Shown here in pieces: positions 2,562-32,384 of a DNA stretch of 34,126 bases. The number at the start of each line of letters is the position of its first letter. Position 1 is the first letter of the stretch. The stretch spans positions 1-34,126 of the forward strand of contig CALHNI010000024.1 in the NCBI GenBank assembly GCA_938034975.1, written 5' to 3'. The notes beneath the pieces were generated by a model. That model saw nothing but the letters and a program-made list of their open reading frames with translations, searched no databases and was not told the DNA's origin. Source of the DNA: Candidatus Goldiibacteriota bacterium (lineage in GTDB: Bacteria; Oederibacteriota; PGYV01; DYJU01). The position numbers were made by a program, and so were the translations under genes.

Positions 2562-3227
2562 ATGGTAGATATTGACATAGATAAAATACTTGAAAAAACA
2601 GAAAAAGCCGAGGCAGAAAAGAAAAAAAAGCAAAAATTAATAATAAATATAATATCTGTTTTTTTAAAAGTATTATTAATAATTTCTGTGTATTTTATTA
2701 TAAATATAATTATTGGAGAAAAATGTATAACTTATTTTCCGTTAAAAAGCGGGATTAAGTTTATTTATAATAAAAAAAATATGAGTCCTGAAGAATGGGA
2801 AATTCTAAATATATTGGCTAATATTAATAATTTTCAATGTAAAATTCTAAATATTGTTGATAAAGGTAATTTCTTTTCAAAACAGGAATATTATTATATA
2901 GATAAAAAAGAAGGCATAATAAGATTGGCTGTTTCATATGATTACGGGAAAAAGACAAAAGATGGTTTCAGACTGCTTCCGGCGAGGATAAAAAAAGGTA
3001 AAGAATTCAAAGCGGGAAAAATAAAAAATAAAATTATAAATGCAAAAATAGAAGAAAAAGAAACTATGTCTTTACCTATAGGTGAGTTAACTGCTTATAG
3101 AGTTCATTATATTGCTGATCCATATTTTAATGAAATTATATGGTTTGCAAAAAATACAGGAATAGTAAAGAAGGTTGATAATGTTGCTAAAATTGAATTG
3201 AATATTATAAATATGGAAAAAAAATGA
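2562..3227 (+). CDS. Single-pass membrane protein of unknown function
   Basis: 221 aa. A charged cytoplasmic N-terminus rich in Lys and Glu (residues 1-25) precedes one transmembrane helix at about 27-50, leaving about 170 residues outside. The exported part opens with [12 protein letters not shown], a pattern seen at the start of many uncharacterised periplasmic beta domains, but I do not recognise a named family. A strong AGGAGG (2547-2552) sits 9 bases before the ATG. The stop overlaps the chemoreceptor start by four bases (ATGA, 3224-3227), so it belongs to the same transcript. It may be an accessory to the neighbouring envelope genes; function not assigned. Confidence 0.6.
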
Positions 3228-4870
3228 ATTTAAAAAAAATTATTTTAAAAAAAGATTTCTTATTATATTTATCTGCGGGTATTTTTTTGTTTGCAATTAT
3301 ATTATTTGCCGTTGTAAATTCAAATATAAAAAAGAAAATTGCAATTCATAATGAAATTATAGAAAAAAATTTATCTGATATTTTAATTCTTTCATCAGTA
3401 CATACGAACTTAAAAAGTTATAATGACAATCTTGTCTATGTGAGGAATTTAAAATGGAACAATGGTACAAAAATAAAATATGTGCGATTAAAGATAAATA
3501 AACCAAAAGAAGATATTCAGAAAATAAACAAAGAAAATATAAAAATGCAACTTATATCTTTTTATGATAATTTAAAAGAGTTAGATTTGAATGATACTAC
3601 AACAAAAGTTCTTACAGAAGAAATAAATAAAAATCAGGAATTTTTAAAAAAAACAGATGCGTCAATTTTATTGTTAAAGTCAGAAATATTAAAAAGCAGG
3701 GAATATATAAAAAAAATACAATCCTTCTCAGGAATTATTTTTATAATTGTTGTTTTTTTTGTATTAATAATCAGCTCATGGGGTTTTTATTATAATCATG
3801 TTGCATCGGGTTCAATAAAATCATTTATTGAAAACTTGCAGACTGATAATTCGGTAATTGAAAATTTAGCAGAACTTTTTGATATAAAAGATAAATTAAA
3901 TGAATTTTTATTGGAAATTAAAAAATCAAAATTAATAGAAAAAAATGCTGAGGAAAAAATAAAAGTTATAAAAGATGCCTTAAAAAATGTAATTACTTCT
4001 TTTTCTGAAATTTCGCTTGCGGCTGATTCTATATCAGTTGCTTCACAGGAACTTGCAAAAAAAATAACAGGATATTCTGAAAGTATAAAAAATACAAAAG
4101 ATTTAACAACTAACATGGTAAATGATACTGAAAAAATAAGAACAGAAACAAATAAAGGGTCTATATATTCCCAGAAAATGAATGAAACAGCAAAAGCCGG
4201 TGAAGAATCAATTGTTTCAACAATAAAGGAAATAGAATCAATGCATGGAGTTATTAATGATTTAAACAATGTGATTGGCAATATGAATACAAAAGCAATT
4301 GAAATAAGTAAAGTTGCATCTTTAATAAAAGAAATTGCTGAACAGACAAATCTCCTTGCTTTAAATGCTTCCATAGAAGCGGCAAGGGCGGGAGAGGCAG
4401 GCAGGGGATTTGCTGTTGTCGCAGAGGAAATAAGACAACTTGCTGAATCAACAGGTAATGCTTCAAAAAAAATATCCGAAGAAGTCAAAGAAATAAACAG
4501 GATAACTAATTTGACAGTTGAAAAAATAAGTGGAGCAGCCAAAAGAATAAACACCAGTGTTAATATTGCAAATGATGCAGCGGTTTCCTTCCAAAAAATA
4601 AAAAATTCAATAGAAGAAACGATGAATATAACGGCGAATATTTATAATTTAACAAATGATGAAGTAAGTAAAATAGAAAGTATAATAAAAATAATTAAAG
4701 AGGTTGAAAACATAATAGATGAGATGGCTTCAAACATAGAGGGAATATCTGCTTCAATTGAACAGGAGACAGCTAGTATTGAAAATCTTCGTTCATCCAT
4801 TGAAGAAATTTATCAGAAAACTGAAAATATACGAAATGATATAGAGAAAATCAGGAAATCCCAAGATTAA
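3224..4870 (+). CDS. Methyl-accepting chemotaxis protein
   Basis: 548 aa. Transmembrane helices lie at about 12-32 and 170-190 and enclose a helical periplasmic sensor of about 135 residues. No convincing HAMP follows TM2; a long helical linker leads to the MCP signalling domain. The conserved hairpin tip that binds CheA/CheW is clear at about 369-402 ([20 protein letters not shown], then [15 protein letters not shown]). Upstream and downstream helices form the methylated bundle. The stop codon abuts the ATG of the SprA-like gene with no gap, suggesting co-expression of a chemoreceptor with an outer-membrane translocon protein. No other che gene is in the window, and the ligand is unknown. 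Confidence 0.92.
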
Positions 4871-7800
4871 ATGCATAGCATATTTTTTTTTATTTCAATT
4901 TTATTTTTTAATTTATCTTTGTTTGCTGTTCAGGATTTAAAAGATAATACAATTAATACCAGGTTAACTATTGAAAATTATGTTTTTAAAGGACCTGAAA
5001 ATTTAAAAGCAGAGGTAAATGGAATAAAGGTAAAATTAAAATGGGATCCGATTAATTTGCCCAATATAAAATATAATATATACAGAAGCACAGAAGAACA
5101 AGGAGAATATTTAAAAATAAATAAAGATGAAATAAGTGGAAATGAATATCTTGATACAAAGAAAAACAGTATATTTCCATTATTAAGTGGTATTAAATAT
5201 TTTTATAAAGTATCTGCTGTTGATTCGGAAAAGGAAATAGGAGAATCAAATATAGTATTTGCCATACCAACAGGTAAACTTTCTCCTCCTGAAGAAGTAA
5301 ATGTAATACCATTTACTGATAAAATTTTAATAAAATGGATAGAACCGGATTCAAGTGGTGAGTATGAAATTGCAGGTTATAATATTTTCAGATCAATAGA
5401 TGAAAAAGATTCAGGAATAAAAATAAATGATGAATTAATAAAGGAATATGAATATGAAGATAAAAATATTGAACAGGGATTAAAATATTTTTACAGATTA
5501 CAAAGTGTTGATGTTAAGGGTAATACTTCTGAACTATCCAATGTATATGAAACAATGCCTTTTGTGCCGGTTTCTGAGCCGCTTGATATTACAGTGCAGG
5601 CAAAATCAAGTGAGAGCATAAAAATCAGTTGGTTAGAACCTGATATAAAGGGTTCTTATGGTATAGCAGGTTATAATATATTCAGGAGTGAAAATCCTGA
5701 TTCTTTTCCTGAAAAACCAATCAATATAAAATTAATAAAACAGTATTATGATGAAGCCGGACGTATTTTTTATTATGATAATATAATAAACAGTATTGAA
5801 CCGCCACAACCAGGAAAAAATTACTATTATAAAATTGTGCCAATTGATACCAATGGCAATACAGGAGTTGCAAGTAAAGTAGTTAGTGGCACTATAGAAC
5901 TTTTAAAATTAAAAAAAACAGGAATAATATCCGGGGAAATTTCTGAATTTGGGTTACCACCGGAATCTAATTTAACAATAACAGGAAGTAAACAAATACA
6001 GCTTTCATATAAACATATATTTTCAGATAATGCCATAGAACAATCAAGATTTGATATAACACAACCTTTAAAAGTCAGAGTAATAGGGAATATAGGAAAA
6101 AAAATAACGGTAGAAGTTGACCATGATGATAGCAGAACCCAGGACGAACAAAGAAAAATATCAATAAAATATCAGGGAGAAAAAGAAGAAACAGTTCAGG
6201 AAGTTAATTTTGGAGATATAACTCTTGATATTCCGGCAACGAGATTTGTTAGTTTTTCCCAATCACTGTTTGGTATAAATGCAAAAATAAAATTGGGTGA
6301 GAAATTTACACTTTCTGCTATAGCAGCACAGACAAAAGGTATAACAGCAATCCAGACATTTAAAGGGAATTTGCGGGAAAAAGAAGTAAATGGTAAAAAA
6401 GGAATTTACATCTCTGATATTGATTTCATTAAAAATACTTATTATTACATAACAAAAGAAAACGTTGAAATAAAACCTGGCTCAGTTGTTGTTTACATGG
6501 ATAATGCAAATATAAATGATTATAATATAAATACAAAAAAGTCATATCCTACAGGAAAATTTGATTTTGACCTTTTAATTTTAGGTACTGATTATACGGT
6601 TGATTATAAAAATAAAATAATTAAATTTAATATCCCGATTTATGATCATTATATAATTGCGGTTGCTTTTGAAACTTTAGATGGCAGAAAAATCGGGTTT
6701 GACGCAAGTGGTGCTTTTGATTTTAATGAAGCAAATTTGATTTCTGAGCAAAATGGCATAACATCTGAATATATGCATTTAATTCAGGATGGAACAATGC
6801 AAAATCCAAAAGACATTTCTCATAAGGTTTTAAGTTTTTATTATCTTGGTGATACACAGATTTATAATCCAAAGATTGACAAGGATTTTGTGATAAAAAT
6901 ATATGATATGTCAAATAAAGAATATTACATCCCGTATCCAACGCATCCTGATGCAGATAAATGGTATGAGATAGATACAGATTTTGGGTTATTAAAATTT
7001 AAAAGTTATTTTCCGTTTAAATATCCAAATAATTCGCCTTGCGATCCGGCAACAAGCAATACAAGGATAGGCACAGAAGATGACGCATATAATACCCAGC
7101 CACCGGTAAATTCAAGGTTTAAAATTTATTTAGAATACAAATATTATGTTTCTTCTTTTAAACTTGATTATCCAAGTGTTGTTTATGGCAGTGAAAAGAT
7201 TTTTTTAAATGGCCGGCTTTTAAGAAAAGACATAGATTATTATATATTATATGAAACAGGGGAAGTTACTTTTATTGACAAAAATTTAATTCAGCCGGAT
7301 TCTGAAATTGTAATTGTTTATGAGTATTTCCCTTTTTTTCAGGCGTTTCCAAGTAATTTATATGGTGCCAGGGCAGAATATAAACTTTTTGATAATTTAT
7401 CTATGGGTACAACTTTTCTTTACAAAAGCGCTAATTCAAGCAGTCAGATTATACCTGATGCGCGCTCTACTTATCAGGGTCTTTCAACTCCTTACAGAAT
7501 GTATATATTGGATGGTGATATAAAATTTGATTTAAAAAAAGAACAGATAAATAAGATTCTGGATGTTTTGCCTTTTATTGAAGATTCAAAAATTCCTGTT
7601 GATTTTTCTTTTCAGGCAGAAATGGCGCATAGCAATTTTAACCCTAATATATTTGATAAGCATAATGAACATGGGGTTGCAATGATAGATAATATAGAAG
7701 GCGCTGATAATATAATAAGCACATCAATGGATAAAAATTACTGGTTCCCTGCAAGCAGACCACAGGCATCTGATATTTCATCAGGGGAAAGAATACAGAT

Positions 7801-10800
7801 AAGTAAATCAAATATAACTGATATTGATCCTGCACCAAGCGCCGGTTCGGATATTTACGGAACTTCAAGCAGGAAAATAATGTTGCAGTTTAATTATAAC
7901 AATTTAACAAGTTCAAAATGGGATGCTTACAGGTATTTAATCTCATCTTATGGTGAAAATTTAAATAATTATTCATATATTGATATGTGGGTGTATACAA
8001 CCCAGCCAATTGAGATCGGGGTTGACCTTGGTGTAATTAGTGAAGATTCAAATGGTAATTCGGTGCTTGATACAGAAGACAAACATGGTGGCAGACCAAA
8101 TGGTATTTTAGAAAGTGACGAAGATACAGGCATAAACCAGTCAAATGATGAATATTGGGGGGCAAGAAATACCTATTTGGATACAGAGGATATGAATAAT
8201 AATGGTATACTTGATACACTTGATGCTTATTATCAATACAGAAAACAAATTACAGAAACAGGTAGATGGATAAATTTAAAAATAGATTTGAAGAAAATAG
8301 GTGAATTTACAGGATATAATGTTTCTTTAGACCCGGCTTCAAAAAATTTTTTATCACTGGTAAAACATGCAAGATTGGTTATAAGGGGAGTTTCGGGAAG
8401 TCCTGTAAACGGATATGTAAAAATAGCGTCCATTGATTTTACAGGAAATTCATGGGTTTTAAAAGTTATGCCAAATTCTTATGACAGGGTGGGAAACAGA
8501 ATTGATTCGCCTGATGTTAATAAATTTAACCTGTCAACAGTAAATAAATATACAGATTCTTCTTATGTCCCAAATGTGAATTTTTTTGAGTATCAAAGAG
8601 AAGAAGATAAAAAATCTGAAAAAGCCTTGAAAATAACTTATAATCAGTCTAATTACGATTTAAGTGCTGATGGAAAAGCAATTTACTTTGCAACTAAAGA
8701 TTTAAGCAGAAGTATTGGTTTTGATTATCAGCCATTTAAAAAATTAAGGTTTGATATCTTTTATTCAAAAAAAGATGGTAGTTCTGGTTCGGGCAAGATA
8801 TTTTTTATAAGATTAGGGACAGGAACATCGGATGATAATAATTATTATCAGTATAATGTTCAGTTAGATGATGTTCCTTCTGATGGAGTGTGGCATACTG
8901 TAGAATTAAAATTAGATGGTTCTGATAAAAAAAGAAGTGCACCTTACGGTAATCCCAATTTGCGTCAGATAAATTATATAACAATAGGTGTTATAAATCC
9001 AAATTCAATGCCGGCAAATGAAATTTTTTATGTTAATAATTTTAGATTAACTGATCCAGATGAAAAGTTAGGATTGGGAAAATACACAAATGCTGTAATT
9101 AATTATTCTGGTTTTGGAAGTGTTTCGCATTCATATCAAGAAATAGAAAGTGATTTTATAACAATTGCCGATGTTGGCAGAACAATGGTAAAGCAACATT
9201 CCAGGAAAAATACAATTAATTTTAATTATAACCAGATTTCATTTTTACCTGTAAGGAATTCATTTAGAAGAGAAGAATTATTTACAGAGGAAAAATATCG
9301 TGAAGATCCTGAATATACAAGTAATTATATTATACCTGATACGGTTATTGAAGAATTTTTAAATTCGGGCTCGTTTAATTTGATTCCAAATTTTACATTA
9401 TCAAATAATATTACTTTAAATAAAACCAAAAACAGATATATAAAAATTTATACCTATCAGGATTATGATTATGAAAAATTCAGAATTGCTCCTTATGCCC
9501 GTTATTCTGTCCCGGATCAGATACAATTACCTGCTGATTTGAAAATACCGCTTGGAAATAATACTGTAGAAAGCAACCTTGCTGTAGTTAATGAAAAATG
9601 GGATTATATTCAGCCTGAATCAATAATATCTAACTTTAACTATAACTATTATGATAAATGGGAAATGACAAGGGAGCAAAATTATAAATGGACAGGCAAT
9701 TATACAATTGACAGAATAAATTTAACAACCGACTATCAATACGGCTTATATGAGAAAAAGGGGAATTTATTAGGCAGATATATTTATTACCTTGATAGAA
9801 TAAGTCCTGATAAATATTATACAAGTGATTATATCTTATTAAAGCGTTCCATAATGCCTTCTTTATCTTTATCTTTGGGAGAGATTTTACTTTTTAATCC
9901 GCAAATATCTTATAAATCAAATTATACAATGGATTATTCAACGATGAGTTTATTGACATCCGGAGATTTTTCTTTTATGACAAAGATAGAGTTAAAAAAG
10001 ATTCTGGATATATTGCCGAATATAAGCACTTATAATGTAAGTATCAGTTTAAATGAAAATTATAACGATACTTATTATTCAGATTCTATAGAAGGATATA
10101 ACAAATTGCCATTTGAATCAAAATGGTTTTTAAATTCCTGGGAAAACATATTCAACAGCAGCAAAATAGAAGAATTAGAAAAATTATCTTATAATGGTTC
10201 TTTCAGATTAAGTCATGACCTTAATTTTTCTGAAATAAAATTTTTTGATAGATTTTCTTTTACGCCACGTGGTAGTTTGAGTATTTACAGAAGTTCTTAT
10301 TCAAGGATTTTAAATACATTTACCAATACGATAAATTTAAGTATTTTTAATATGCAGGTTCTTAATGTCAGTATTCCCGGACTTGAGAGATTTTTCAGAA
10401 ATGAAACATTAACAGGGAACTATATTTATTCTGACACAAAAACAATAGATCCGGTTAATAAAAAGGATGTAATTAATGAAACCATAAGTCACAGTGCAGA
10501 TATTACATTAAATTTCAAGGATAATGATGCATTGGAAAATCCTTTAACAGGGAGACTTGGTATTTCTTATAGTAAAAAGGATACACAAAACAGACAAATT
10601 TTTATATGGATGTATACACTGGAACCAAGATTCCAGTTAAATTACTTTTTTAAATTTAATGAACCAATGCTGATTCCTTCATGGATGCCATGGATTGGAG
10701 GGAAAGCATTTAAATTGGAACAAGTATTACAATGGAAAAATATTTTATCTGTTTTTATAACGAGAGGCGATGATGTGGGTGGAGTGCGAGCAAATAAGCA

Positions 10801-10966
10801 ATCAAATGAAAAATACAAAGCAGAAACAGGATTTACATATAATTTTTTGGAAAATGTTGAATCCAATTTTTCACTAATTTATGAAAATAATGTTGATAGA
10901 GTGCGGGATGTGAAATATAATTATAGTTCGCTACAGATAGTCCTTTCAGTAACTGCATATTTTTAA
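4871..10966 (+). CDS. SprA/Sov-like giant outer-membrane protein with N-terminal FN3 domains (T9SS translocon family)
   Basis: 2031 aa with a signal peptide (about 1-19). Residues about 40-340 hold three fibronectin-III-like domains (repeated YNIFRS...YFYK.....V patterns). From about 350 the sequence follows the surface SprA/Sov family: SGEISEFGLPPES; a beta-rich stretch with VNFGDITLDIPATRF and SQSLFGINAKIKLG (about 445-475); the VDYKNKIIKF and ILYETGEVTFID elements; and GARAEYKLFDNLSMGTTFLY (about 832-851). Two Asp/Asn-rich motifs (DSNGNSVLD, about 1059; DMNNNGILD, about 1107) resemble calcium-binding loops. The C-terminal part is strand-rich and ends in aromatic F, as outer-membrane barrels do. 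In Bacteroidota SprA forms the T9SS export pore. Length is close to the family's 2000-2400. FN3 domains at the N-terminus are unexpected there. Translation probably couples to the preceding stop; only a weak AGGAAA (4853-4858) is present. Confidence 0.78.
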   Translation: MHSIFFFISILFFNLSLFAVQDLKDNTINTRLTIENYVFKGPENLKAEVNGIKVKLKWDPINLPNIKYNIYRSTEEQGEYLKINKDEISGNEYLDTKKNSIFPLLSGIKYFYKVSAVDSEKEIGESNIVFAIPTGKLSPPEEVNVIPFTDKILIKWIEPDSSGEYEIAGYNIFRSIDEKDSGIKINDELIKEYEYEDKNIEQGLKYFYRLQSVDVKGNTSELSNVYETMPFVPVSEPLDITVQAKSSESIKISWLEPDIKGSYGIAGYNIFRSENPDSFPEKPINIKLIKQYYDEAGRIFYYDNIINSIEPPQPGKNYYYKIVPIDTNGNTGVASKVVSGTIELLKLKKTGIISGEISEFGLPPESNLTITGSKQIQLSYKHIFSDNAIEQSRFDITQPLKVRVIGNIGKKITVEVDHDDSRTQDEQRKISIKYQGEKEETVQEVNFGDITLDIPATRFVSFSQSLFGINAKIKLGEKFTLSAIAAQTKGITAIQTFKGNLREKEVNGKKGIYISDIDFIKNTYYYITKENVEIKPGSVVVYMDNANINDYNINTKKSYPTGKFDFDLLILGTDYTVDYKNKIIKFNIPIYDHYIIAVAFETLDGRKIGFDASGAFDFNEANLISEQNGITSEYMHLIQDGTMQNPKDISHKVLSFYYLGDTQIYNPKIDKDFVIKIYDMSNKEYYIPYPTHPDADKWYEIDTDFGLLKFKSYFPFKYPNNSPCDPATSNTRIGTEDDAYNTQPPVNSRFKIYLEYKYYVSSFKLDYPSVVYGSEKIFLNGRLLRKDIDYYILYETGEVTFIDKNLIQPDSEIVIVYEYFPFFQAFPSNLYGARAEYKLFDNLSMGTTFLYKSANSSSQIIPDARSTYQGLSTPYRMYILDGDIKFDLKKEQINKILDVLPFIEDSKIPVDFSFQAEMAHSNFNPNIFDKHNEHGVAMIDNIEGADNIISTSMDKNYWFPASRPQASDISSGERIQISKSNITDIDPAPSAGSDIYGTSSRKIMLQFNYNNLTSSKWDAYRYLISSYGENLNNYSYIDMWVYTTQPIEIGVDLGVISEDSNGNSVLDTEDKHGGRPNGILESDEDTGINQSNDEYWGARNTYLDTEDMNNNGILDTLDAYYQYRKQITETGRWINLKIDLKKIGEFTGYNVSLDPASKNFLSLVKHARLVIRGVSGSPVNGYVKIASIDFTGNSWVLKVMPNSYDRVGNRIDSPDVNKFNLSTVNKYTDSSYVPNVNFFEYQREEDKKSEKALKITYNQSNYDLSADGKAIYFATKDLSRSIGFDYQPFKKLRFDIFYSKKDGSSGSGKIFFIRLGTGTSDDNNYYQYNVQLDDVPSDGVWHTVELKLDGSDKKRSAPYGNPNLRQINYITIGVINPNSMPANEIFYVNNFRLTDPDEKLGLGKYTNAVINYSGFGSVSHSYQEIESDFITIADVGRTMVKQHSRKNTINFNYNQISFLPVRNSFRREELFTEEKYREDPEYTSNYIIPDTVIEEFLNSGSFNLIPNFTLSNNITLNKTKNRYIKIYTYQDYDYEKFRIAPYARYSVPDQIQLPADLKIPLGNNTVESNLAVVNEKWDYIQPESIISNFNYNYYDKWEMTREQNYKWTGNYTIDRINLTTDYQYGLYEKKGNLLGRYIYYLDRISPDKYYTSDYILLKRSIMPSLSLSLGEILLFNPQISYKSNYTMDYSTMSLLTSGDFSFMTKIELKKILDILPNISTYNVSISLNENYNDTYYSDSIEGYNKLPFESKWFLNSWENIFNSSKIEELEKLSYNGSFRLSHDLNFSEIKFFDRFSFTPRGSLSIYRSSYSRILNTFTNTINLSIFNMQVLNVSIPGLERFFRNETLTGNYIYSDTKTIDPVNKKDVINETISHSADITLNFKDNDALENPLTGRLGISYSKKDTQNRQIFIWMYTLEPRFQLNYFFKFNEPMLIPSWMPWIGGKAFKLEQVLQWKNILSVFITRGDDVGGVRANKQSNEKYKAETGFTYNFLENVESNFSLIYENNVDRVRDVKYNYSSLQIVLSVTAYF

Positions 10967-10980
10967 TAAATGGAGGATTT

Positions 10981-13900
10981 ATGAAGTTGTTTAAAAAATT
11001 TGTCTATACAGCGATTATATGTTTTATACCAATTTTTTTATTTTCTGAAATTTTACCGCCGTCTTCTGTTATTCCTGTAAGATGGAATGATGGGGTTGAA
11101 ATTATTTGGAAAGATGCCATATCTACAACGACAGTTGCAAATTATATTATTTATAGAGCAACATGGGAAAATTTGAGTGAAACCTATTATGGCATTACTT
11201 TTTCTACAGGGACAAATGTGACCCGCTATGTGGACAGTTTAATAAACACCTATGAAACTTATTTTTACGCTGTTCAGACAGCTGATATTTTAGGAAATAC
11301 AAGTGTCTTATCAGGTATAGTTCCTTGTTTTCCTTACAACCTTACTATTACTGCGTTTAATTCAAAAAATTTTTTAAAATGGAACAGTCAGATTATAAAT
11401 GTGAGTGGTTTTAATATTTATCGGAGCACAGCAACTAATGGAAATTTTTCAGCAATTGCTTTAACAAAAACATCAAATGAATATTTAGACAGCGAAGTTG
11501 TAAATGGCTTTACCTATTATTATAAAATAGGAGCAATATACAATTCTTCTGAAGCACCTTTATCATCAACAAAATCTGCAACACCATTTGTGCATCCTTT
11601 TAAACCTGAAAAATTATCCTATACAGTATCTGTTGATATTTCAGGAAATACAAATGTAATAATTACCTGGTCTGCTGAAAATATAACAGGAACTTATCCT
11701 GTGAATGGTTTTAAAATATACAGGTCATTGATTTATGATGATGAAAGTGATTTTTCTGGTTTTTCAACTTCAACTGGTTATATTAATACAATACCAGATT
11801 CTGGTTATAAATACTACTATAAGATAAAAACAGTGGATATAAAGGGTAATACATCAATTCCTGCATATTTTTCAGTTTATATAAGTGGAAAACCATCTTC
11901 GCCTTTAAATCTTACAATTACATCAATTGCCCTTGATTCTGTAAACCTTTCCTGGTCAGCAAATTCAAGTTATGAAAATGTAACTGCTTATGTTGTTTAC
12001 AGGTCAACTTATGAGCAAATTGGAATTACATCTTTTAATTTTTTTACCGATAATATAACTTTAACCCCAGGGGCAACAATCAATTATCATATAAGAGCAC
12101 TTAATGCTTATGGTTTAAGCGATTTTTCAAACGCGGTAACCTGCACAATAAAACCAAAACAACCGGTAAATTTTAGTATAACCCAGGGCGAACCAGATAA
12201 AGTAAAATTAAAATGGGATGCAAATGGTATAAATGAAAATATAAACATATATAATATTTACAGAGTTGAACCGCCTTCATCAATTGATCTTAACAATCCT
12301 TATTATATTTTGATAACAGATACAGTATCTGGAAACATAGAATTTACTGATGTTTCTGTGAATACCAGCACATTTTATTGTTATGCTGTAGCAGCAGTAA
12401 CTTTTAGTTCATCGCCTGAATATGTGACAGGAAATGCATCATCACCTTTTTATATAACACCTGTTTCAATACCATCAATACCACAAAATTTAACAGTGAC
12501 CGCATTTAACTCTTATGTTTTACTATCATGGGATAAAAATAATGAAAAAGAAAAAATTATAGCATATAATATTTTTAGGAGCACAGATGAAATTTTTTAT
12601 TCTAATATTACACGCGTATCTCAAAATTATCATTATGATTCAGGGCTTAATACGTATACATGTTATTTTTATAAAATAAATGCGGAAAATTACCTTGGCT
12701 GGTCATCAACTTTAACTGCCTATATTTCTGTAACGCCATATGCAGTAAATTTTATAGACAGACCAAAAAACATAACATTATCATCAAAAGGTGATGGAAA
12801 TTTATTTTTGCAATGGAATGCTTCAAGACCAGAGGATAATGTTATACAGTATAATATTTACAGGTCAACCGTATCTGGTATTTATGGTTCTACTCCATAT
12901 TCATATACAAGTGTAACTTATTATGTGGATGTATCTGTTACTGCGGGTAATCAGTATTACTATATATTAACAGCTTTAGGTTTAACTGAAAGTGCAGCAT
13001 CAGATGAAATAGTTGGAGTTCCATTTATAAAACCATATCCGCCAACTAATATAAATTTAAGTAACATTCATAATAAAGTTTTAATTACATGGAATAACCC
13101 TGTTGCCAAAGGGACTTATCAAAATATAAATCAATTTAATATTTACAAAAGCACATCCCCAGCTAATTTTATTTTACAAAAATCAAAAACAACGGATAAT
13201 TATTATATTGACAGTTCTGTAAACACTAATTTTTCATATTATTATAAAATAAAATCTGTTGATAACAATGATAATGAGGATTCTTCAGAAACATATTATA
13301 CTATAAATTTGATTAATACTTCTTCACCACCCAAAACACTTATTGCTTATGCTGGTGAAAACTGGGTAACTATAAACTGGCAACGGGTTACTTTAACAGC
13401 TGATTCTTATAATATTTATAAAAGCACAGTATCAAATTATTATATAGAACCATATATTTATTCCTTAAACGTTAATACTTATAAAGAATACACTGATTAT
13501 AATGTTCAAAGAGGGGTAACATATTATTATGTCATAACTGCTGTAAATTCAGCTGGAGAAGGCCCAAAATCAAATGAAGTAGAAATTACACCTTATATGA
13601 CAGTAAAATTGCCTGACAACCCTTATATAAGATATACAATAGAAAATAAAAAAGATATTCATCTTTTCTGGGATAAAGCCAAAGATGGTGATTATGCAGT
13701 TATTGGTTATAATGTTTTAAGAAGTAAAGACGGCGGAGCGTATTATGAAACACTTGGTTTTGTAACAGCCACGGCATCACCGGATTTTTTAGATGATAAA
13801 ACAGAATGGAATAATATTTATTATTACATGATAAAGACCGTTGATTCTAAATTAAATCAGGATACAACCTATCCAATTTTAAAAGTTGAGTTACCCAGAC

Positions 13901-14211
13901 CAGAAAATAAAATAAGGATTTTTTCCAATCTTTTTGATTTAAGTAAAAATGAAAAATTAAAATTAAAATATCAGGTAATAAAAAGCGGAAAAATAAGAGT
14001 AAAAGTTTATACATTGAGCGGTATTTTTGTTAAGACGTTATTAGAAGAAGATGTTCCAGAAGGTATTTCTTATGAAAATCCTTTTGAAAGTCAGGATTTT
14101 TACTGGGACGGGAAAAATGAATCTGGTGAAAAAGTAGCAGCCGGAGTTTATATTATTTTACTTGAAACCAATGATAAAAAAGTTTTAGCAAAAGTTGCAG
14201 TTGTAAAATAA
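10981..14211 (+). CDS. Secreted multi-fibronectin-III protein with FlgD-like / T9SS type-A-like C-terminal domain
   Basis: 1076 aa. A signal peptide (about 1-23) is followed by about ten tandem FN3-like domains of 85-105 residues. Each shows a core W, then YNIYRS or a variant, and ends in YYYKI.....D..GN (boundaries near 24, 118, 205, 300, 391, 500, 592, 685, 785, 880). The last 100 residues (about 975-1076) form a FlgD-Ig-like domain: VKVYTLSGIFVKTL, then FYWDGKNESGEKVAAGVYII and a final AKVAVVK strand. That layout matches type-A C-terminal sorting domains of T9SS cargo. TGGAGG (10972-10977) precedes the ATG. It lies 14 bases after the SprA-like gene, and I infer it is a surface protein exported by that pathway. 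No catalytic domain is visible; an adhesin or sheath role is a guess. Confidence 0.75.
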   Translation: MKLFKKFVYTAIICFIPIFLFSEILPPSSVIPVRWNDGVEIIWKDAISTTTVANYIIYRATWENLSETYYGITFSTGTNVTRYVDSLINTYETYFYAVQTADILGNTSVLSGIVPCFPYNLTITAFNSKNFLKWNSQIINVSGFNIYRSTATNGNFSAIALTKTSNEYLDSEVVNGFTYYYKIGAIYNSSEAPLSSTKSATPFVHPFKPEKLSYTVSVDISGNTNVIITWSAENITGTYPVNGFKIYRSLIYDDESDFSGFSTSTGYINTIPDSGYKYYYKIKTVDIKGNTSIPAYFSVYISGKPSSPLNLTITSIALDSVNLSWSANSSYENVTAYVVYRSTYEQIGITSFNFFTDNITLTPGATINYHIRALNAYGLSDFSNAVTCTIKPKQPVNFSITQGEPDKVKLKWDANGINENINIYNIYRVEPPSSIDLNNPYYILITDTVSGNIEFTDVSVNTSTFYCYAVAAVTFSSSPEYVTGNASSPFYITPVSIPSIPQNLTVTAFNSYVLLSWDKNNEKEKIIAYNIFRSTDEIFYSNITRVSQNYHYDSGLNTYTCYFYKINAENYLGWSSTLTAYISVTPYAVNFIDRPKNITLSSKGDGNLFLQWNASRPEDNVIQYNIYRSTVSGIYGSTPYSYTSVTYYVDVSVTAGNQYYYILTALGLTESAASDEIVGVPFIKPYPPTNINLSNIHNKVLITWNNPVAKGTYQNINQFNIYKSTSPANFILQKSKTTDNYYIDSSVNTNFSYYYKIKSVDNNDNEDSSETYYTINLINTSSPPKTLIAYAGENWVTINWQRVTLTADSYNIYKSTVSNYYIEPYIYSLNVNTYKEYTDYNVQRGVTYYYVITAVNSAGEGPKSNEVEITPYMTVKLPDNPYIRYTIENKKDIHLFWDKAKDGDYAVIGYNVLRSKDGGAYYETLGFVTATASPDFLDDKTEWNNIYYYMIKTVDSKLNQDTTYPILKVELPRPENKIRIFSNLFDLSKNEKLKLKYQVIKSGKIRVKVYTLSGIFVKTLLEEDVPEGISYENPFESQDFYWDGKNESGEKVAAGVYIILLETNDKKVLAKVAVVK

Positions 14212-20189: not shown

Positions 20190-21617
20190 ATGTGGTTTGA
20201 AAAAATGGGAATATATGGTATGCAGGATATAGAAGATATAATAATAGCAGGGATTGCCATAGGCGATCCTGTTTTACTTATTGGTTCGCATGGCACTGCC
20301 AAGACAACTTTGTGCAGAAAACTTGCAGAATCTTTAAATCTTAAATTTCATGCTTATGATGCATCAAAAGCATTATTTGAAGATATAATAGGTTTTCCTA
20401 ATCCTGATTCTATATCAAAAGGTAAAATTGAATATGTCCCAACTACACTTTCAATCTGGGATAAAGAATTTATTTTAATAGATGAAATATCCCGTGCAAG
20501 GGCTGAATCACAGAACAAATGGTTGGAAGTTATAAGAAGCAGAAAGATTATGGGCTTAAAAATAGAGTGTTTAAAATATGTATTTGCTGCAATGAATCCT
20601 CCTTCTTATCTGGGGGCAAACCCACTTGATGAAGCGCTTGCAGGAAGATTTACTTTTATAGTCAAAATACCTACTGTTGTTGAAATGAAAGTAAATGACG
20701 TATGTGAAATAATAAATAACATAAATGAAGATGATGGCAGAGCTTTAGCACAAGGTAATGAAAAAAAATTGAATAAAAAAGATAAAGAAGAATTTAATAA
20801 ATTCATAGTTGCTATAAGAAGTAAAATAAAAGAGTTAAATAAGGATAAAGACTTAAATTTGGATATTGATAGTTATTTAATAAAATTCATGCGTTTTGCT
20901 GATACAAAAGGACTTACAATTGATGGCAGGCGACTTAATATGGCGAAACGTAATATTTTAGCGTATATTTCAATATTACTTTTAAAAGATAAAAATTTGA
21001 AACTTGATTTTAAAAATTTAAGCGATCATATATTTTATGCAATGAAACATACAATGCCTTTTAATGCTTTTGATGCTGATTTTACAGATATAAAAATAAG
21101 ATATTTGCATGATATATCTTTTGATTTCGTTGATGATAAAATAATCGGAGGTGTATTTAACATAAAAACCGTTGAAGATGTAATGCAGTTAGATAATTAT
21201 GCAATTTCCAGGAACTACCCGGCTATTAAATCAGTGATTACAAAAATAATTAGCAATATAAAAGGCCCGGATAATATGGAAAAAAAGCCATTATATATTA
21301 AAATTTTAAGATCATTGATAAAGAGAATATGTGATGGTGAAATAAAACTTGAAAATAATGATATTGAAAGGTTATTTGAAACTTATAAATATTTATTTGA
21401 TATGTCATTTATTAATGATTATAAATATTCTGGATTACAATTTTATGCTGAAAATCTAATCCAGGGGAATATTGAAAATGATAAAAATGATATTGATATA
21501 TTTAAAATAGTCTATAACTTATTAAGAAATGAAAGACAGGATATAATTGATGAATTTAAATTAAAAAAATCTTTAAAAATATTTAAAGATTTTTTTTATA
21601 AAGAAAAGGAGGATTAA
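20190..21617 (+). CDS. MoxR-family AAA+ ATPase
   Basis: 475 aa. The Walker A is GSHGTAKTT (32-40), the Walker B FILIDEIS (about 94-101, D98/E99), followed by the MoxR-type sensor stretch AAMNPPSYLGANPLDEALAGRF. The region after about 270 is a helical extension without a domain I recognise. MoxR ATPases usually act as chaperone-like partners of VWA proteins, and a VWA gene lies two genes downstream. GAAAGGAGAG (20175-20184) precedes the ATG. It opens a compact three-gene unit whose next ATG follows this stop directly. The gene is preceded by its own candidate promoter and operator. Confidence 0.9.
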   Translation: MWFEKMGIYGMQDIEDIIIAGIAIGDPVLLIGSHGTAKTTLCRKLAESLNLKFHAYDASKALFEDIIGFPNPDSISKGKIEYVPTTLSIWDKEFILIDEISRARAESQNKWLEVIRSRKIMGLKIECLKYVFAAMNPPSYLGANPLDEALAGRFTFIVKIPTVVEMKVNDVCEIINNINEDDGRALAQGNEKKLNKKDKEEFNKFIVAIRSKIKELNKDKDLNLDIDSYLIKFMRFADTKGLTIDGRRLNMAKRNILAYISILLLKDKNLKLDFKNLSDHIFYAMKHTMPFNAFDADFTDIKIRYLHDISFDFVDDKIIGGVFNIKTVEDVMQLDNYAISRNYPAIKSVITKIISNIKGPDNMEKKPLYIKILRSLIKRICDGEIKLENNDIERLFETYKYLFDMSFINDYKYSGLQFYAENLIQGNIENDKNDIDIFKIVYNLLRNERQDIIDEFKLKKSLKIFKDFFYKEKED

Positions 21618-22727
21618 ATGAAAGTTGCGGCATTTAAAAAAATTTTAGAATACAAAGGAACTACTGCATATGAGTGTGTTGAAATTTCGCTTCAAATTTA
21701 TGAAGTTGTTGATAAGTTTTATGTTGGACATTCAATTCTTGGTGGTGAACATTTTTTTTATAAAAAATTAAAGGGAAGAGAATATACAATAATTGATGAA
21801 GAATATAATTTTGGATATAGATTCAGAAGGAAATTAATTGCGAAAGATAAAATGGTAATTCCACTAAAAATAAATAATAAAACGAGAATGATAAAAGGGA
21901 TTATTTTATATGAATCAAAAAAATCAATGATAAAATTTTTAAAAAAATATATTGATTTTTCAAAAAATTGTTATTTTAATGAATTAATTAAAGAGTGTAA
22001 AGGGATTAATGGGAAACCAAATTTAGAACTATTTTTTGAAAGAATAGAAGAATATAGATATTTTGAGTGGAGAGATACATTTATTGAAATAGAAAAAAAA
22101 GATAGAACAGAAATGTATAATTATTATTTCGAAAATAATAATACTTATATTATGAATAAATCCGGATTAGAAAATACGCAAAGGATTTTTGCAATTGAAA
22201 CAAAAAGAGAAATAGATGGTTATAATGTGCCAGAAATTAATTATATTTATCAAGGAATAAAAGATAAAAAAGAATATATAGTAACTTATTTTAATGGTCA
22301 AATAAAAACATATGAAAATTTTTATAATATAAATCCTGTAATCTTAAAAAATATTGACCAATCAGGAAAAATTTATAATACTTCATATGTTGACCTTTTG
22401 CCCGATAATTCAAGAGAAGTATTTGCAATATTAAGAATACCGACAAAAAAAGAATATGCCAAATATAAAAGTAAAAGTAAAAGTAAAAGTAAAAAAACAA
22501 ACAATGATAATTATCAAATACTAAATAAGATTTTTTATGTTTCTCCATCATTAAAAGCATGTAACATTAAACCGGGTGTTAGAGTAATAGATGATATAGA
22601 TATATTTCGCCAAATAATATCAAAAATTAGTTCGGATATCTATATTCCTGGGAATATGAGTATAGAATTTAATGAGGAATTATTACCGGATGATGAGCAA
22701 TTTTTGTTATTGGAAAAACCGGTTTGA
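21618..22727 (+). CDS. Unknown protein of the MoxR/VWA module
   Basis: 369 aa, soluble, no signal peptide or transmembrane helix, rich in Lys, Asn, Tyr and Ile. I do not recognise any domain. It begins directly after the MoxR stop with AAGGAGG (21606-21612) inside the end of that gene, and lies 12 bases before the DUF2201-type gene, so the three are surely co-translated. Residues about 284-292 form a K-S dipeptide run encoded by a perfect (AAAAGT)x4 repeat. Its position suggests an adaptor, substrate or effector for the ATPase/VWA pair. The composition is even more AT-biased than the flanking housekeeping genes. Confidence 0.6.
   Translation: MKVAAFKKILEYKGTTAYECVEISLQIYEVVDKFYVGHSILGGEHFFYKKLKGREYTIIDEEYNFGYRFRRKLIAKDKMVIPLKINNKTRMIKGIILYESKKSMIKFLKKYIDFSKNCYFNELIKECKGINGKPNLELFFERIEEYRYFEWRDTFIEIEKKDRTEMYNYYFENNNTYIMNKSGLENTQRIFAIETKREIDGYNVPEINYIYQGIKDKKEYIVTYFNGQIKTYENFYNINPVILKNIDQSGKIYNTSYVDLLPDNSREVFAILRIPTKKEYAKYKSKSKSKSKKTNNDNYQILNKIFYVSPSLKACNIKPGVRVIDDIDIFRQIISKISSDIYIPGNMSIEFNEELLPDDEQFLLLEKPV
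22467..22490 (+). repeat. Hexanucleotide tandem repeat (AAAAGT)x4
   Basis: Four perfect AAAAGT units inside the 21618-22727 gene encode alternating Lys-Ser. The unit length is a multiple of three, so slippage would change protein length and not reading frame. Probably a flexible linker. Confidence 0.85.
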
Positions 22728-22739
22728 CAGGAATTTAAA

Positions 22740-24089
22740 ATGGATATTAAACATCCTGATGAAATACAGATGTATATAAATCAATTTATCTTAGAAACCA
22801 AAATACCTTTTCTTATTGAACAAATTTATAAAATAAAATCAAACTGGTATTTTCATTTTACGGAATATGACTCCAATATAAAAACAGCTGCGGTGATAAG
22901 ACGTGATTATTATGTATACGATATTTTTTTTAACCGGAATTTTTTAAAAGAACACGTAAAGAATAAAAACGATCTGGTTTTTGTCTTTTTGCATGAATTT
23001 TTCCATATAATAAACGGGGATCTTTTAAGGGATATGAAGTATTGGAAAGCAAGAAAAGTAATAACAAATATTATTTTTGACATAAAGATAAACAGTGAAA
23101 TCTTAAAAAATTATTCAAAAAATGGTTATCATTTTTTAAGGAGATTTTACAAAAATACAAAAAATGTATTTAATTTACTTCTTTACCCTTTATTTGAATA
23201 TTCTGATCTTGAAGATAATTCAATATTTGAAAATGGAGAAAAACAATTAGAGATTGTAAAAAAAATAGAAAATATGAAATTTGAAAATGAAGATATTATA
23301 AAAGATAAAAAGAAATTGGCAATGTGGTATATAAATGCCTGGTTTAAGAATTTTTCATTAGATATGCTTTTAAAAAGCATTGAAGAAATTTTAAAAATAA
23401 ATACTGTTTTTATTGACGTGGTTTTAATAGGTAATCATAATAATTATTTTAAAAAAGATGAAGTTAAAAAAGAAAAAATCATTATTGACGAATTTGTAGA
23501 AAAAGACAATAGAAATGCAATAATAAATATAGTAAAAAAAATACTTGAAGAAGATGGTGAAAAGTTAATAATTGATAAGTTTATAACAACACGAAGAGGT
23601 GTCCTCCCTAATTTGGGCAGGCGTGAAACTTTTTTTATTGCAGGAGGTGTTTATCCTTTTTTTTTCAAAAATTTGGTTGTTGATGATGATGAATTTTATA
23701 AAAACACACACATTTATATTGATGTTTCAGGATCGGTATTAGAAGAATTACCTTTTATATATAAACTGATAGAATCAATAAAGTTATATATAAGCGAACC
23801 TATATATCTTTTTTCTACTAAGATAGAAGAGATAAGTATTGAAGAATTAAAAAATGGCGAAATAAAAACAACCTATGGCACAGATTTTAATTGTGTTATT
23901 TTACACGCTATAAATAATAATTTTAAAAAAATATTAATAATAACAGATGGGCGGGGAAGTATATCAGATGATAATATCGTATTTGCAAAAGAAAAGAATA
24001 TAGAAATATTCGTTATATTAACTACAAATAAATATAAAAATCCGTTTGAAATAATTGCTAAAAAAACCTGGTTAATAATAGATAATTAA
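22740..24089 (+). CDS. DUF2201-type protein: putative HExxH metallopeptidase domain plus VWA-like domain
   Basis: 449 aa. The N-terminal half carries a zinc-protease-like HEFFH (H85, E86, H89) within FVFLHEFFHIINGD. The C-terminal half (from about 320) is a VWA-like domain with a MIDAS motif DVSGS (D328-S332), a downstream YGTDFN threonine and ITDGRGS. This arrangement matches the DUF2201_N/DUF2201 family, whose genes commonly sit beside MoxR ATPases. CAGGAA (22728-22733) precedes the ATG. Whether the HExxH is active is unknown; no clear third zinc ligand can be assigned by eye. It is the last gene of the module and is followed by repeat DNA. Confidence 0.8.
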   Translation: MDIKHPDEIQMYINQFILETKIPFLIEQIYKIKSNWYFHFTEYDSNIKTAAVIRRDYYVYDIFFNRNFLKEHVKNKNDLVFVFLHEFFHIINGDLLRDMKYWKARKVITNIIFDIKINSEILKNYSKNGYHFLRRFYKNTKNVFNLLLYPLFEYSDLEDNSIFENGEKQLEIVKKIENMKFENEDIIKDKKKLAMWYINAWFKNFSLDMLLKSIEEILKINTVFIDVVLIGNHNNYFKKDEVKKEKIIIDEFVEKDNRNAIINIVKKILEEDGEKLIIDKFITTRRGVLPNLGRRETFFIAGGVYPFFFKNLVVDDDEFYKNTHIYIDVSGSVLEELPFIYKLIESIKLYISEPIYLFSTKIEEISIEELKNGEIKTTYGTDFNCVILHAINNNFKKILIITDGRGSISDDNIVFAKEKNIEIFVILTTNKYKNPFEIIAKKTWLIIDN

Positions 24090-29782: not shown

Positions 29783-31384
29783 ATGAAAAAATTTTTTACT
29801 TTTATGATTATTTTAAAAGTGAGTTTTTTATACCTTTATGCTGAAGTTGTGGATATTAAAAAAATGCCTTTGTATAAAGATGAGATTATTGTCAAATATA
29901 AAGATAATTTAGAAAATGACACACTTGATAAATTAGGGGAAAAATATAAAAAAAAATTTGCCACAAAAGAAGAAGCTGTTTATTTTATAGAAAAAAAATA
30001 CGGACTTTTGATTAAAAAAAATTATTTAAAGAATATTCCTTTTGTATGCTATAAAATACCTAATATTAATTTAATGGAAAGTTTAATAAAGGAAATTTCA
30101 GGGGAAGAAATAGTAGAATATGCAGAACCTAATTATTTAAGATATGCTTTATATACTCCGCTTTCAAAACCTGATGATCCATATTATCAGTCAGGCAATT
30201 TGTGGGGATTCAACAGGATTAAGGCAGATTATGCTTTGAATAATATGGTTTTTGATGTCTCTAAGAATAAAAAAATTATAGTAGCAGTTATTGATACGGG
30301 AATTGGATGCGGAAATAATTGCTTTCATGAAGATTTACAGGGAAGAACAGTAAATGGTATTAATATGCTTAATCTTGCGGAAGCGCCATATGACGATGGT
30401 ATAGATTTAGGGCATGGAACTTTTGTTGCAGGGATTATTGCAGCAAATATAAACAACACAGCTGGCGTTGCAGGAGTTACTTTGTGTAATTTAACTTATA
30501 CGGCAAATGTTTTAGTTATGCCAGTAAAAGTATTAAATTCAGAAGGTGAAGGTAATGATGATATTGTGTATTCAGGTATTGTATGGGCAGCAGATAATGG
30601 GGCACATGTATTAAATTTAAGTTTTGGTGGGAAAGAAGACAGTATAACTTTAAGAAATGCAATAAATTATGCTTATTCTAAAGGTTGTGTAATTGTTGCG
30701 GCTGCTGGTAATTCAGATACATATACATTTTATCCGGCTGCATACTCAAATGTAATAAGTGTTGGCGCATCCGGAATATTAGATAAAAAAGTAAATTTTT
30801 CAAATACAGGTAAAATAGATGTTTGTGCACCCGGAGAAAATATATATAGCACTGATAATAAACTTTCATGTTATAAATATTCTCTATCAAGTGGAACATC
30901 ATTTGCAGCACCATTTGTAAGTGGACTTGCTGCTTTACTTTTGTTACTTAATGAAAATTTAACTCAGCAACAGGTAAGAAATTTAATAGAACAAACCTGC
31001 GATGATATTGAAGAACCAGGGTTTGATAATAAAACAGGATGGGGGAGAATAAATGTATATAGAGCATTACAAAGGGATTTAAGTAAAGTTTCTGGTATAA
31101 AAACATATAATTGGCCAAATCCTTTTTCACCAGAAAAAGATTTAAATACAAATATAGAAATAATATTAAATGAAATTATTGATATAATAATTGAAATTTA
31201 TGATGCCGGAGGAGATCTTGTCTGGAAAAGAGAAATAAAAAAAAATGAGTTAAACTATGGTCATAATACTATTTTATGGAATGGTAAAAATATGTCCGGC
31301 AAAAGGGTAAATAACGGAATCTATTTTTATGTAATAAAAAGTTCAAAAGTAATAGGTAAAAATAAAATAGCTGTGCTTTATTAA
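29783..31384 (+). CDS. Secreted subtilisin-family (S8) protease with FlgD-like / T9SS type-A-like C-terminal domain
   Basis: 533 aa: signal peptide (about 1-20), I9-type propeptide (about 30-115; DEIIVKYKD ... VEYAEPNYL), then the S8 catalytic domain with D171 (AVIDTGIG), H211 (GHGTFVAG), oxyanion N310 (AAAGNS) and S373 (GTSFAAPFVSG). Residues about 439-533 form a FlgD-Ig-like/type-A sorting-like domain: YNWPNPFSP, then ILWNGKNMSGKRVNNGIYFYVI and a last KIAVLY strand. The complete triad predicts an active protease. The C-terminal domain and the PorV-like gene 14 bases downstream suggest export by a T9SS-like route. It lies 15 bases after coaBC. Confidence 0.92.
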   Translation: MKKFFTFMIILKVSFLYLYAEVVDIKKMPLYKDEIIVKYKDNLENDTLDKLGEKYKKKFATKEEAVYFIEKKYGLLIKKNYLKNIPFVCYKIPNINLMESLIKEISGEEIVEYAEPNYLRYALYTPLSKPDDPYYQSGNLWGFNRIKADYALNNMVFDVSKNKKIIVAVIDTGIGCGNNCFHEDLQGRTVNGINMLNLAEAPYDDGIDLGHGTFVAGIIAANINNTAGVAGVTLCNLTYTANVLVMPVKVLNSEGEGNDDIVYSGIVWAADNGAHVLNLSFGGKEDSITLRNAINYAYSKGCVIVAAAGNSDTYTFYPAAYSNVISVGASGILDKKVNFSNTGKIDVCAPGENIYSTDNKLSCYKYSLSSGTSFAAPFVSGLAALLLLLNENLTQQQVRNLIEQTCDDIEEPGFDNKTGWGRINVYRALQRDLSKVSGIKTYNWPNPFSPEKDLNTNIEIILNEIIDIIIEIYDAGGDLVWKREIKKNELNYGHNTILWNGKNMSGKRVNNGIYFYVIKSSKVIGKNKIAVLY

Positions 31385-31397
31385 AAATGGAGAAACG

Positions 31398-32384
31398 ATG
31401 AGGTCTTTCGTAAATTTATTATTATTTATTTTAATCGCTATAAATTTAATGGGATATGGGGGACAATCATTTGCTTTTTTAAAAAATGATTTTGGAGTAA
31501 GGGCAGTAAGTATGGGAGGCAGTTTTGTGTCTTTGGCGGATGATGTTTCGTGCATTTATTATAATCCCGCAGGGCTTTTAAAATTATATGATTTGGAACT
31601 TTCAGCAGAAACACATATTTTAAGTTTTGGCAGAAATTTAAATTTTATAGCACTTGGCAGACCATTTGAAATAAATAAATTATATTATGCCACAGGTTTT
31701 TCCTGGATAAATTTTTCATCAGGTTCTGATATAGAAGAAAGAAGAACAAATTCTCCTGAACCTATAAGTACATTTTCAAATAATGCCAATGTTTTTATTT
31801 TTTCAACAGCAACCAGTATTATGAAAAATTTTTATATAGGTGGTAATTTTAAATTCTTATTTCAAAATATAAAAGATACCAAAGGCAGAGGAATTGGTTT
31901 TGATTTAGGTGTTTATTTTAGGATTTTTAATAATTTAAATGCAGGCTTTGCGTTACATAATATAAGCACGAATATAAATTGGGACAATTCATCACGTATT
32001 GAAACAGTTCCGCAATATTTTTTATGCGGATTTTCTTATGAGTTTAAAAATTTATCAGAATTAAAAGTTTTTGATTTGATAACAGGAATTGATTTTGTTT
32101 ATGAAGGTCCTGATTATTTTAAAATAAAAACAGGAAGTGAATTATTTATAAATAAATTTATCGCATTAAGAGCAGGGTATAATGGGGCATTAACTTTTGG
32201 ATTTGGAGTAAAACTTTTTATAACTGAAATTTTTACTATGGAAATTGATTATTCTTTTTTTAAGGATTTTATTTTGGAAGATGAATTTAATCACAGAATA
32301 GGTATTACTTTTGATTACATTTTCCCACATTGGGGAACCATAGACATGAATAAAAATGAAAAAGAAAATGCCAAAAAAAGTTGA
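31398..32384 (+). CDS. PorV/PorQ family outer-membrane protein
   Basis: 328 aa with a signal peptide (about 1-20) and a beta-barrel composition. The N-terminal GVRAVSMGGSFVSLADDVSC then IYYNPAGLL (about 35-63) is the hallmark of PorV/PorQ (UPF0164) proteins; a FadL-like barrel follows. In Bacteroidota PorV shuttles T9SS cargo from the SprA/Sov pore to the PorU attachment complex. It cannot be split from PorQ or orphan paralogues by eye. TGGAGAAA (31388-31395) precedes the ATG. It directly follows a protease with a sorting-like domain. Confidence 0.8.
   Translation: MRSFVNLLLFILIAINLMGYGGQSFAFLKNDFGVRAVSMGGSFVSLADDVSCIYYNPAGLLKLYDLELSAETHILSFGRNLNFIALGRPFEINKLYYATGFSWINFSSGSDIEERRTNSPEPISTFSNNANVFIFSTATSIMKNFYIGGNFKFLFQNIKDTKGRGIGFDLGVYFRIFNNLNAGFALHNISTNINWDNSSRIETVPQYFLCGFSYEFKNLSELKVFDLITGIDFVYEGPDYFKIKTGSELFINKFIALRAGYNGALTFGFGVKLFITEIFTMEIDYSFFKDFILEDEFNHRIGITFDYIFPHWGTIDMNKNEKENAKKS

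Follow-up and report, generated by a model that had tools for sequence, protein, structure and literature searches.

The SprA/Sov-type outer-membrane translocon encoded in the window (the whole stretch of 34,126 nucleotides that was analysed) carries three fibronectin type III (FN3) domains at its N-terminus, an arm which, in the sample examined, is confined to a single phylum, Goldiibacteriota (the NCBI phylum, also called candidate division FCPU426). A search of titles and abstract openings in the open-licence literature found no mention of FN3 domains in SprA, nor any of type IX secretion in Goldiibacteriota, and within that scope the FN3-armed SprA is an unrecorded variant of a known pore. 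We infer, with moderate confidence, that the domains serve as a lineage-specific periplasmic docking arm.

Identity of the SprA gene and its N-terminal domains

The SprA gene, its parts and the adjacent gene are located as follows.

4871..10966, + strand: SprA/Sov-type outer-membrane translocon (P0001), 2031 aa (translation; TIGR04189, 211.9 bits)
Residues 1-20 of SprA: hydrophobic, leader-like N-terminus (judged by eye)
4994..5248, + strand: FN3 domain 1, residues 42-126 (Pfam, HMM, AlphaFold2, Foldseek)
5288..5539, + strand: FN3 domain 2, residues 140-223 (strongest Pfam fn3 stretch)
5579..5875, + strand: FN3 domain 3, residues 237-335, barrel-proximal (HMM, AlphaFold2, conservation)
5906..5986, + strand: conserved junction with the SprA region (residues ~346-372), the end of which aligns with residues 140-141 of 6h3i (profile)
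10981..14211, + strand: protein of 1076 aa with ten FN3 domains and a C-terminal Ig-like domain (HMM/Pfam), the tail resembling type IX sorting domains and FlgD (models and Foldseek)

The preliminary description of this DNA had called the product SprA-like, and the TIGR04189 score bears this out, as it exceeds the curated NCBIfam cut-off of 200 bits. Four relatives fell on either side of that value (186.3, 206.0, 186.4 and 216.1 bits), and a six-frame search with the same model, scored piecewise, passed the cut-off in 10 of 79 genomes, with the window's genome below it. SprA_N (PF14349) gave a partial match of 17.8 bits, below its cut-off of 27, and P0001 used as a single query against the PDB (phmmer, E 1) retrieved titin and other FN3-type chains and not SprA. 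A profile of 19 SprAs, four rows of which come from outside Goldiibacteriota, found SprA 6h3i at E 9.5e-129. Since SprA_N stays below its cut-off and the single query does not reach SprA in the PDB, the protein is a divergent member of its family; judging from these comparisons, it is nonetheless a true SprA/Sov translocon.

The SprA start codon stands directly after the stop of an upstream chemoreceptor-like gene (3224-4870; named by eye), and 14 bases separate SprA from the downstream 1076-aa gene. Given this spacing, the three genes are probably co-transcribed. A homologue of the chemoreceptor-like gene adjoins SprA in some, not all, loci of the order. An assembly artefact was ruled out, as the layout is common to 12 other genomes of the order.

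Three FN3 domains had been proposed for the region 4871-5900, and the sequence and structure searches agree with both the domains and the coordinates. Pfam fn3 (PF00041) matched P0001 in 3 stretches with 39.5 bits (cut-off 25). A further HMM, derived solely from the downstream neighbour's ten FN3s (a number that the preliminary description also had right), recognised SprA residues 42-125, 140-222 and 237-334 with 35.2, 42.7 and 25.1 bits, respectively, while the best of 1000 shuffles of SprA residues 38-346 reached 8.2 bits. AlphaFold2, run with 13 related N-termini, modelled beta-strand domains over residues 41-340 with a mean pLDDT of 83-95 per ten-residue block and low confidence on either side. 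When the modelled N-terminus was compared with the PDB by Foldseek, FN3 tandems came out on top (titin A84-A86, 8bnq, E 2.3e-14), contactin-4 FN1-3 taking rank 4. The whole-model TM-scores (by query) were low, 0.23-0.39 in the best 50 rows listed, maybe because the interdomain hinges are free and the ends disordered. By sequence and by model, the SprA N-terminal domains carry the FN3 fold. The third of them ends ~12 residues before the conserved junction. DNA repeats within 4871-5905 are only short and diverged (60-88% identity), and no recent duplication was seen there.

Distribution and descent of the FN3 domains

SprA was detected (TIGR04189, E 1e-5) in 40 of the 45 Goldiibacteriota genomes searched, the window's genome included. 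With an HMM iterated from the three domains of the window SprA, three FN3s were counted ahead of the core in 21 of these proteins, one in 10 and none in 9, i.e. 31 of the 40 bear the domain. All 13 SprAs of the window's order, which belong to six families, possess three, as do 8 more outside the order. The Pfam fn3 model was positive in the same 13 and in only 7 of the 27 others of the phylum. As a guard against circularity, a first-pass HMM made from the window's three domains only found at least one domain (E <=6e-8) in each of 14 FN3-bearing SprAs outside the order; this covers 14 of 18, and the other four (L044, L049, L052 and L088) were assigned by the iterated model only.

A TIGR04189 sweep of 384 genomes, the outside part of which is not spread evenly over phyla, revealed SprA in 154 genomes, 114 of them from outside Goldiibacteriota. 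Their N-termini were readable in 109 cases (9/9, 65/67 and 35/38), which together with two Neomarinimicrobiota contigs makes 111, and Pfam fn3 (E 0.01) matched in none of these (0/11, 0/65 and 0/35). Our own FN3 HMM also found no domain in the two larger outside frame sets or in ten further outside frames. The two Bacteroidota-looking genomes of the sweep (G247 and G377) have a near full-length SprA together with GldL and GldM over cut-off. The rows L032, L033 and L034 were left out of the counts as duplicates (contigs of G002, G006 and G009), as were L037 (a Bacteroidetes contig without the N-terminus), L038 (a KSB1 contig with an FN3-only match), G143, and four rows cut by contig ends (L134, L145, L168 and L182); L114, L131 and L139, whose frames reach the DNA edge, were kept. 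The long apparent N-termini of L130 and L143 were rejected as domains, being upstream reading frame (by eye). The preliminary description had regarded FN3 domains at this position as unfamiliar in Bacteroidota SprA. The search across phyla agrees that the arrangement is unusual, for it was not found in many typical SprAs outside the phylum (0/111), yet it is not a one-off either (31/40 within it).

A tree was computed from 45 SprA cores, 36 of them belonging to the phylum and nine from elsewhere (the incomplete L067, L072, L076 and L088 were omitted). In it, Goldiibacteriota fall together (100), the FN3-less families f8 and f16 form one group (100) and all FN3-bearing SprAs another (95). The tree was built by a quick method with SH-aLRT support only, contains several long branches and has a midpoint root between the outside and inside rows. 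This topology fits a single FN3 gain within the phylum followed by vertical descent with the pore; it is equally compatible with a gain after the FN3-less lineage split off and with an earlier gain and one loss. L086, which has three FN3s, stands among the single-FN3 rows, so that the tree is compatible with either order of one and three domains.

The FN3 domains themselves were compared in a tree of 133 domains, computed from 90 columns, in which 49 of 130 inner branches are open and the bootstrap is not settled. In it, FN3-2 (99/86) and FN3-3 (92/97) of the order form single groups and FN3-1 requires two changes, and each FN3 of the window SprA clusters with its positional counterparts in the relatives and not with the FN3s of the neighbour. 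The idea that the two genes had exchanged domains, which the preliminary description had raised, thus finds no support as far as recent exchange is concerned. The neighbour's 60 domains require 4 changes. An old shared origin of FN3-2 and the neighbour's FN3s is nevertheless possible: the FN3-2 group of the order shares a weakly supported open fork (81/87) with these 60 domains, and L085 and L086 each have one FN3 that falls within them on a long branch.

The three positions differ in conservation. The 13 SprAs of the order show a mean pairwise identity of 0.40 in FN3-1, 0.45 in FN3-2 and 0.54 in FN3-3; the core, divided into four consecutive parts, gives 0.53, 0.52, 0.51 and 0.37 (13, 11, 11 and 8 rows, respectively). 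In families f7 and f13 (six rows, without L085 and L086) the corresponding domain values are 0.47, 0.44 and 0.57, and the single FN3s have a mean identity of 0.51. FN3-3 is conserved like most of the core, whereas FN3-1 and FN3-2 are less so.

The adjacent FN3 gene and probable type IX components

Two further genes of the window belong to this context.

29783..31384, + strand: S8 protease, C-terminal tail of type IX type (CHU_C, 30.5 bits, cut-off 27; Peptidase_S8, 166.5 bits)
31398..32384, + strand: PorV/PorQ family protein (NF033709, 93.4 bits, cut-off 90); PorV is the SprA partner in Flavobacterium johnsoniae

Of the 24 FN3-bearing loci whose downstream DNA is readable, 20 have a gene with one to ten FN3s after SprA, as against none of the 9 FN3-less loci. 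The exceptions are the four loci of family f13 (4/4), which have three FN3s in SprA and no FN3 neighbour, a single downstream frame being visible in two of them. In G009 and G022 the SprA N-terminus lies on a separate contig, and the FN3 gene of G022 is present as two short frames. In L044, L039, L042 and other loci without an FN3 neighbour, the gene immediately after SprA looks by eye like a ComF-like phosphoribosyltransferase gene. All 8 Goldiibacteriota genomes examined for fn3 gave matches, 7 of them over cut-off, including 2 of the 3 with an FN3-less SprA. Since the domain is so widespread in the phylum, the repeat style common to SprA and its neighbour is not in itself evidence of interaction, and both family f13 and the FN3 proteins encoded elsewhere weaken the idea that an FN3-bearing SprA is strictly tied to an FN3 neighbour.

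The tails of the FN3 genes resemble type IX sorting domains. The PorZ model matched 14 of 14 and TIGR04183 10 of 14, the window copy lying below the curated cut-off for each, and FlgD_ig matched all 14. A profile of the tails found FlgD first in the PDB (E 3.3e-4), with PorZ at E 0.031. The modelled tail (pLDDT 94.1, from five models that spread from 48.5 to 94.1) retrieved PorZ and PorU first with Foldseek (E 1.7e-4 to 6.7e-4, TM by query 0.52-0.57), followed by unrelated Ig-like domains. In a single BLASTP comparison the tail matched that of the S8 protease with E 3e-6. From sequence and model, the FN3 neighbour likely belongs to the same system, as cargo or as a surface protein; the S8 protease, by its domain matches, is likely type IX cargo as well. 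The genome contains both a PorV-family partner and type IX-type C-terminal domains on likely cargo.

Models of the motor proteins GldL and GldM found nothing in any of the 79 genomes, the window's included, and may be too narrow: in a control of 7 genomes they were positive in G247 and G377 only and negative in four others with a strong SprA. The 79 genomes without a GldL/GldM match comprise 49 with SprA matches and at least 6 with PorU over cut-off. The motor may be highly diverged, or the energy coupling may differ. The PorU model NF033707, applied to at most 8 candidates per genome, exceeded its cut-off in at least 6 of the 79 genomes, all of which lie outside the phylum, and in none of the 45 Goldiibacteriota genomes among the matches listed on the same basis. 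Partial matches to its peptidase part occur in G006, G028 and G014. The window's genome has at least 8 NF033707 matches, all of which, among those listed, fall in the tail part. Similarly, the matches listed for G000 and other Goldiibacteriota lie mostly in the C-terminal part (columns ~955-1094), which corresponds to a type IX-like tail on other proteins. Elsewhere in the window (20190-24089), three genes stand in a row (by eye): one for a MoxR-like AAA ATPase, one of unknown kind and one whose product has a VWA-like C-terminus.

Place and possible role of the N-terminal arm

The F. johnsoniae structural study (PMC10994853) describes the SprA N-terminus as periplasmic, folded inside a SkpA trimer, in contact with SprE and needed for secretion; the grip of SkpA on SprA is described there for F. 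johnsoniae. The 19-SprA profile aligns with residues 140-2047 of the F. johnsoniae protein, whose residue 140 corresponds to residues 371-372 of the window SprA, ~36 residues past FN3-3. A profile of seven outside SprAs aligns with F. johnsoniae SprA already from residue 56. When a match starting at column 150 or earlier of this seven-SprA profile is taken as a canonical N-terminus, it is present in 59 of the 65 stronger outside SprAs, in 5 of the 35 more divergent ones and in none of the 40 from Goldiibacteriota, with or without FN3, where the first matching column is 168 or higher. This result weakens the idea that FN3 domains directly replaced the segment gripped by SkpA, since no match is seen in the FN3-less sister lineage or in most of the divergent outside SprAs either. 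The FN3 domains sit where that segment would be, probably without having displaced it directly. By homology to the periplasmic N-terminus of F. johnsoniae SprA, the FN3 rod of the window SprA would lie in the periplasm. A Skp-family protein (PF03938) is encoded in 43 of the 45 Goldiibacteriota genomes.

Based on our observations, we suggest that the three-domain rod was gained within Goldiibacteriota and has since been inherited with the pore, and that it most likely serves as a docking arm on the periplasmic side of the pore rim. By virtue of its conservation, FN3-3 would be packed against the rim or against an invariant partner, while FN3-1 and FN3-2 would extend into the periplasm and hold an accessory protein or position incoming cargo; the arm may in this way take the job of the SkpA-gripped, SprE-contacting N-terminus of F. 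johnsoniae. In favour of docking are the three domains in every SprA of the order (13/13), their absence from the 111 outside N-termini and the identity of FN3-3 (0.54). Against it stand the nine FN3-less SprAs of the phylum, which indicate that the arm is not required for SprA function in general, and the lower conservation of FN3-1 and FN3-2 compared with most of the core. The fit to F. johnsoniae comes from the profile alignment, and the partner is putative.

The same data can be read in other ways. The FN3s might be a spacer or an envelope anchor, for instance through peptidoglycan or lipoprotein contact, with no role in cargo handling; a domain number of none, one or three, as for a length-setting element, and the weaker conservation of FN3-1 and FN3-2 agree with such a role, which we nevertheless regard as unlikely, as FN3-3 is conserved like most of the core and this suggests a specific contact. 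That constraint on FN3-3, together with the retention of three domains in 13 of 13 SprAs across six families, also speaks against dispensable passengers, i.e. a module common in the phylum that was fused once and kept without specific function. The passenger explanation draws on the fn3 matches found throughout the phylum (8/8 genomes, 7 over cut-off, including 2/3 with an FN3-less SprA) and on the nine SprAs that manage without the domain, and seems quite improbable to us.

A dedicated cargo receptor, in which the arm recognises the FN3 stretches of the adjacent ten-FN3 protein, had been the second of two functional ideas in the preliminary description. It is favoured by the co-occurrence at the locus (20/24 versus 0/9) and by the sorting-like tail of the neighbour (PorZ 14/14, TIGR04183 10/14; PorZ and PorU first in Foldseek). 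However, the four f13 loci keep three FN3s without such a neighbour, the co-occurrence pattern amounts to few events on the core tree, the FN3s of the window's own SprA and neighbour do not pair in the FN3 tree, and fn3 matches are also found in genomes with an FN3-less SprA. Two published observations were counted against it as well: type IX cargoes require a C-terminal domain for transport (abstract of PMC11285876), and in the F. johnsoniae structures the passenger domains, although non-randomly positioned, make no tight or specific contact with the SprA cavity (PMC10994853). Binding of FN3 cargo is therefore a weak proposition and the most improbable of these readings, and a receptor dedicated to the FN3 neighbour is less likely than a docking arm. 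Docking in the periplasm, the first of the two ideas, is the better one and stands as the best reading by analogy with the F. johnsoniae N-terminus, its function being deduced from that comparison.

A broader and more tentative proposal, which we consider possible without favouring it, is that the SprA N-terminus is a general swappable adaptor slot, into which each lineage plugs its own periplasmic partner on a common pore. The slot would hold the SkpA/SprE-contacting segment in F. johnsoniae-like systems, the FN3 arm in one Goldiibacteriota clade and other modules, including helical repeat-like ones, in other phyla. This proposal arises from the divergent SprAs L179 (G252) and L184 (G111), both outside the phylum, in each of which the barrel is preceded, in place of FN3 domains, by ~400 residues judged by eye to be helical and repeat-like; a weak TPR_2 match was found in L179 only (E 6e-4, 20.1 bits, cut-off 27).

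For F. johnsoniae, the attachment of the type IX pore to periplasmic components has been described in structural detail (PMC10994853). That the SkpA/SprE segment is unseen in a phylum where most SprAs bear an FN3 arm suggests that this contact is not universal in type IX pores, and that the inner end of the SprA pore is a docking site changeable between lineages. The FN3 arm might also be helpful as a compact, soluble bait for a periplasmic partner in bacteria in which the models used find no Bacteroidota-type motor and no PorU above its cut-off.

Compared with known systems, the domains of the window SprA are alike to fibronectin type III domains (PF00041) in sequence and fold, but they sit at the N-terminus of an outer-membrane pore, whereas the FN3 matches in the PDB are eukaryotic proteins. 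The divergent SprAs from outside the phylum (L179, L184 and others) share with the window SprA a divergent core and a mostly unmatched canonical N-terminus, and differ in the absence of FN3. As in the type IX system of F. johnsoniae, a PorV-family gene is found here, in the same window as SprA. To F. johnsoniae SprA itself (6h3i), the window SprA is similar at profile level over residues 140-2047 of the former; where the former has a short N-terminus gripped by SkpA, the latter has ~300 residues of FN3 domains.
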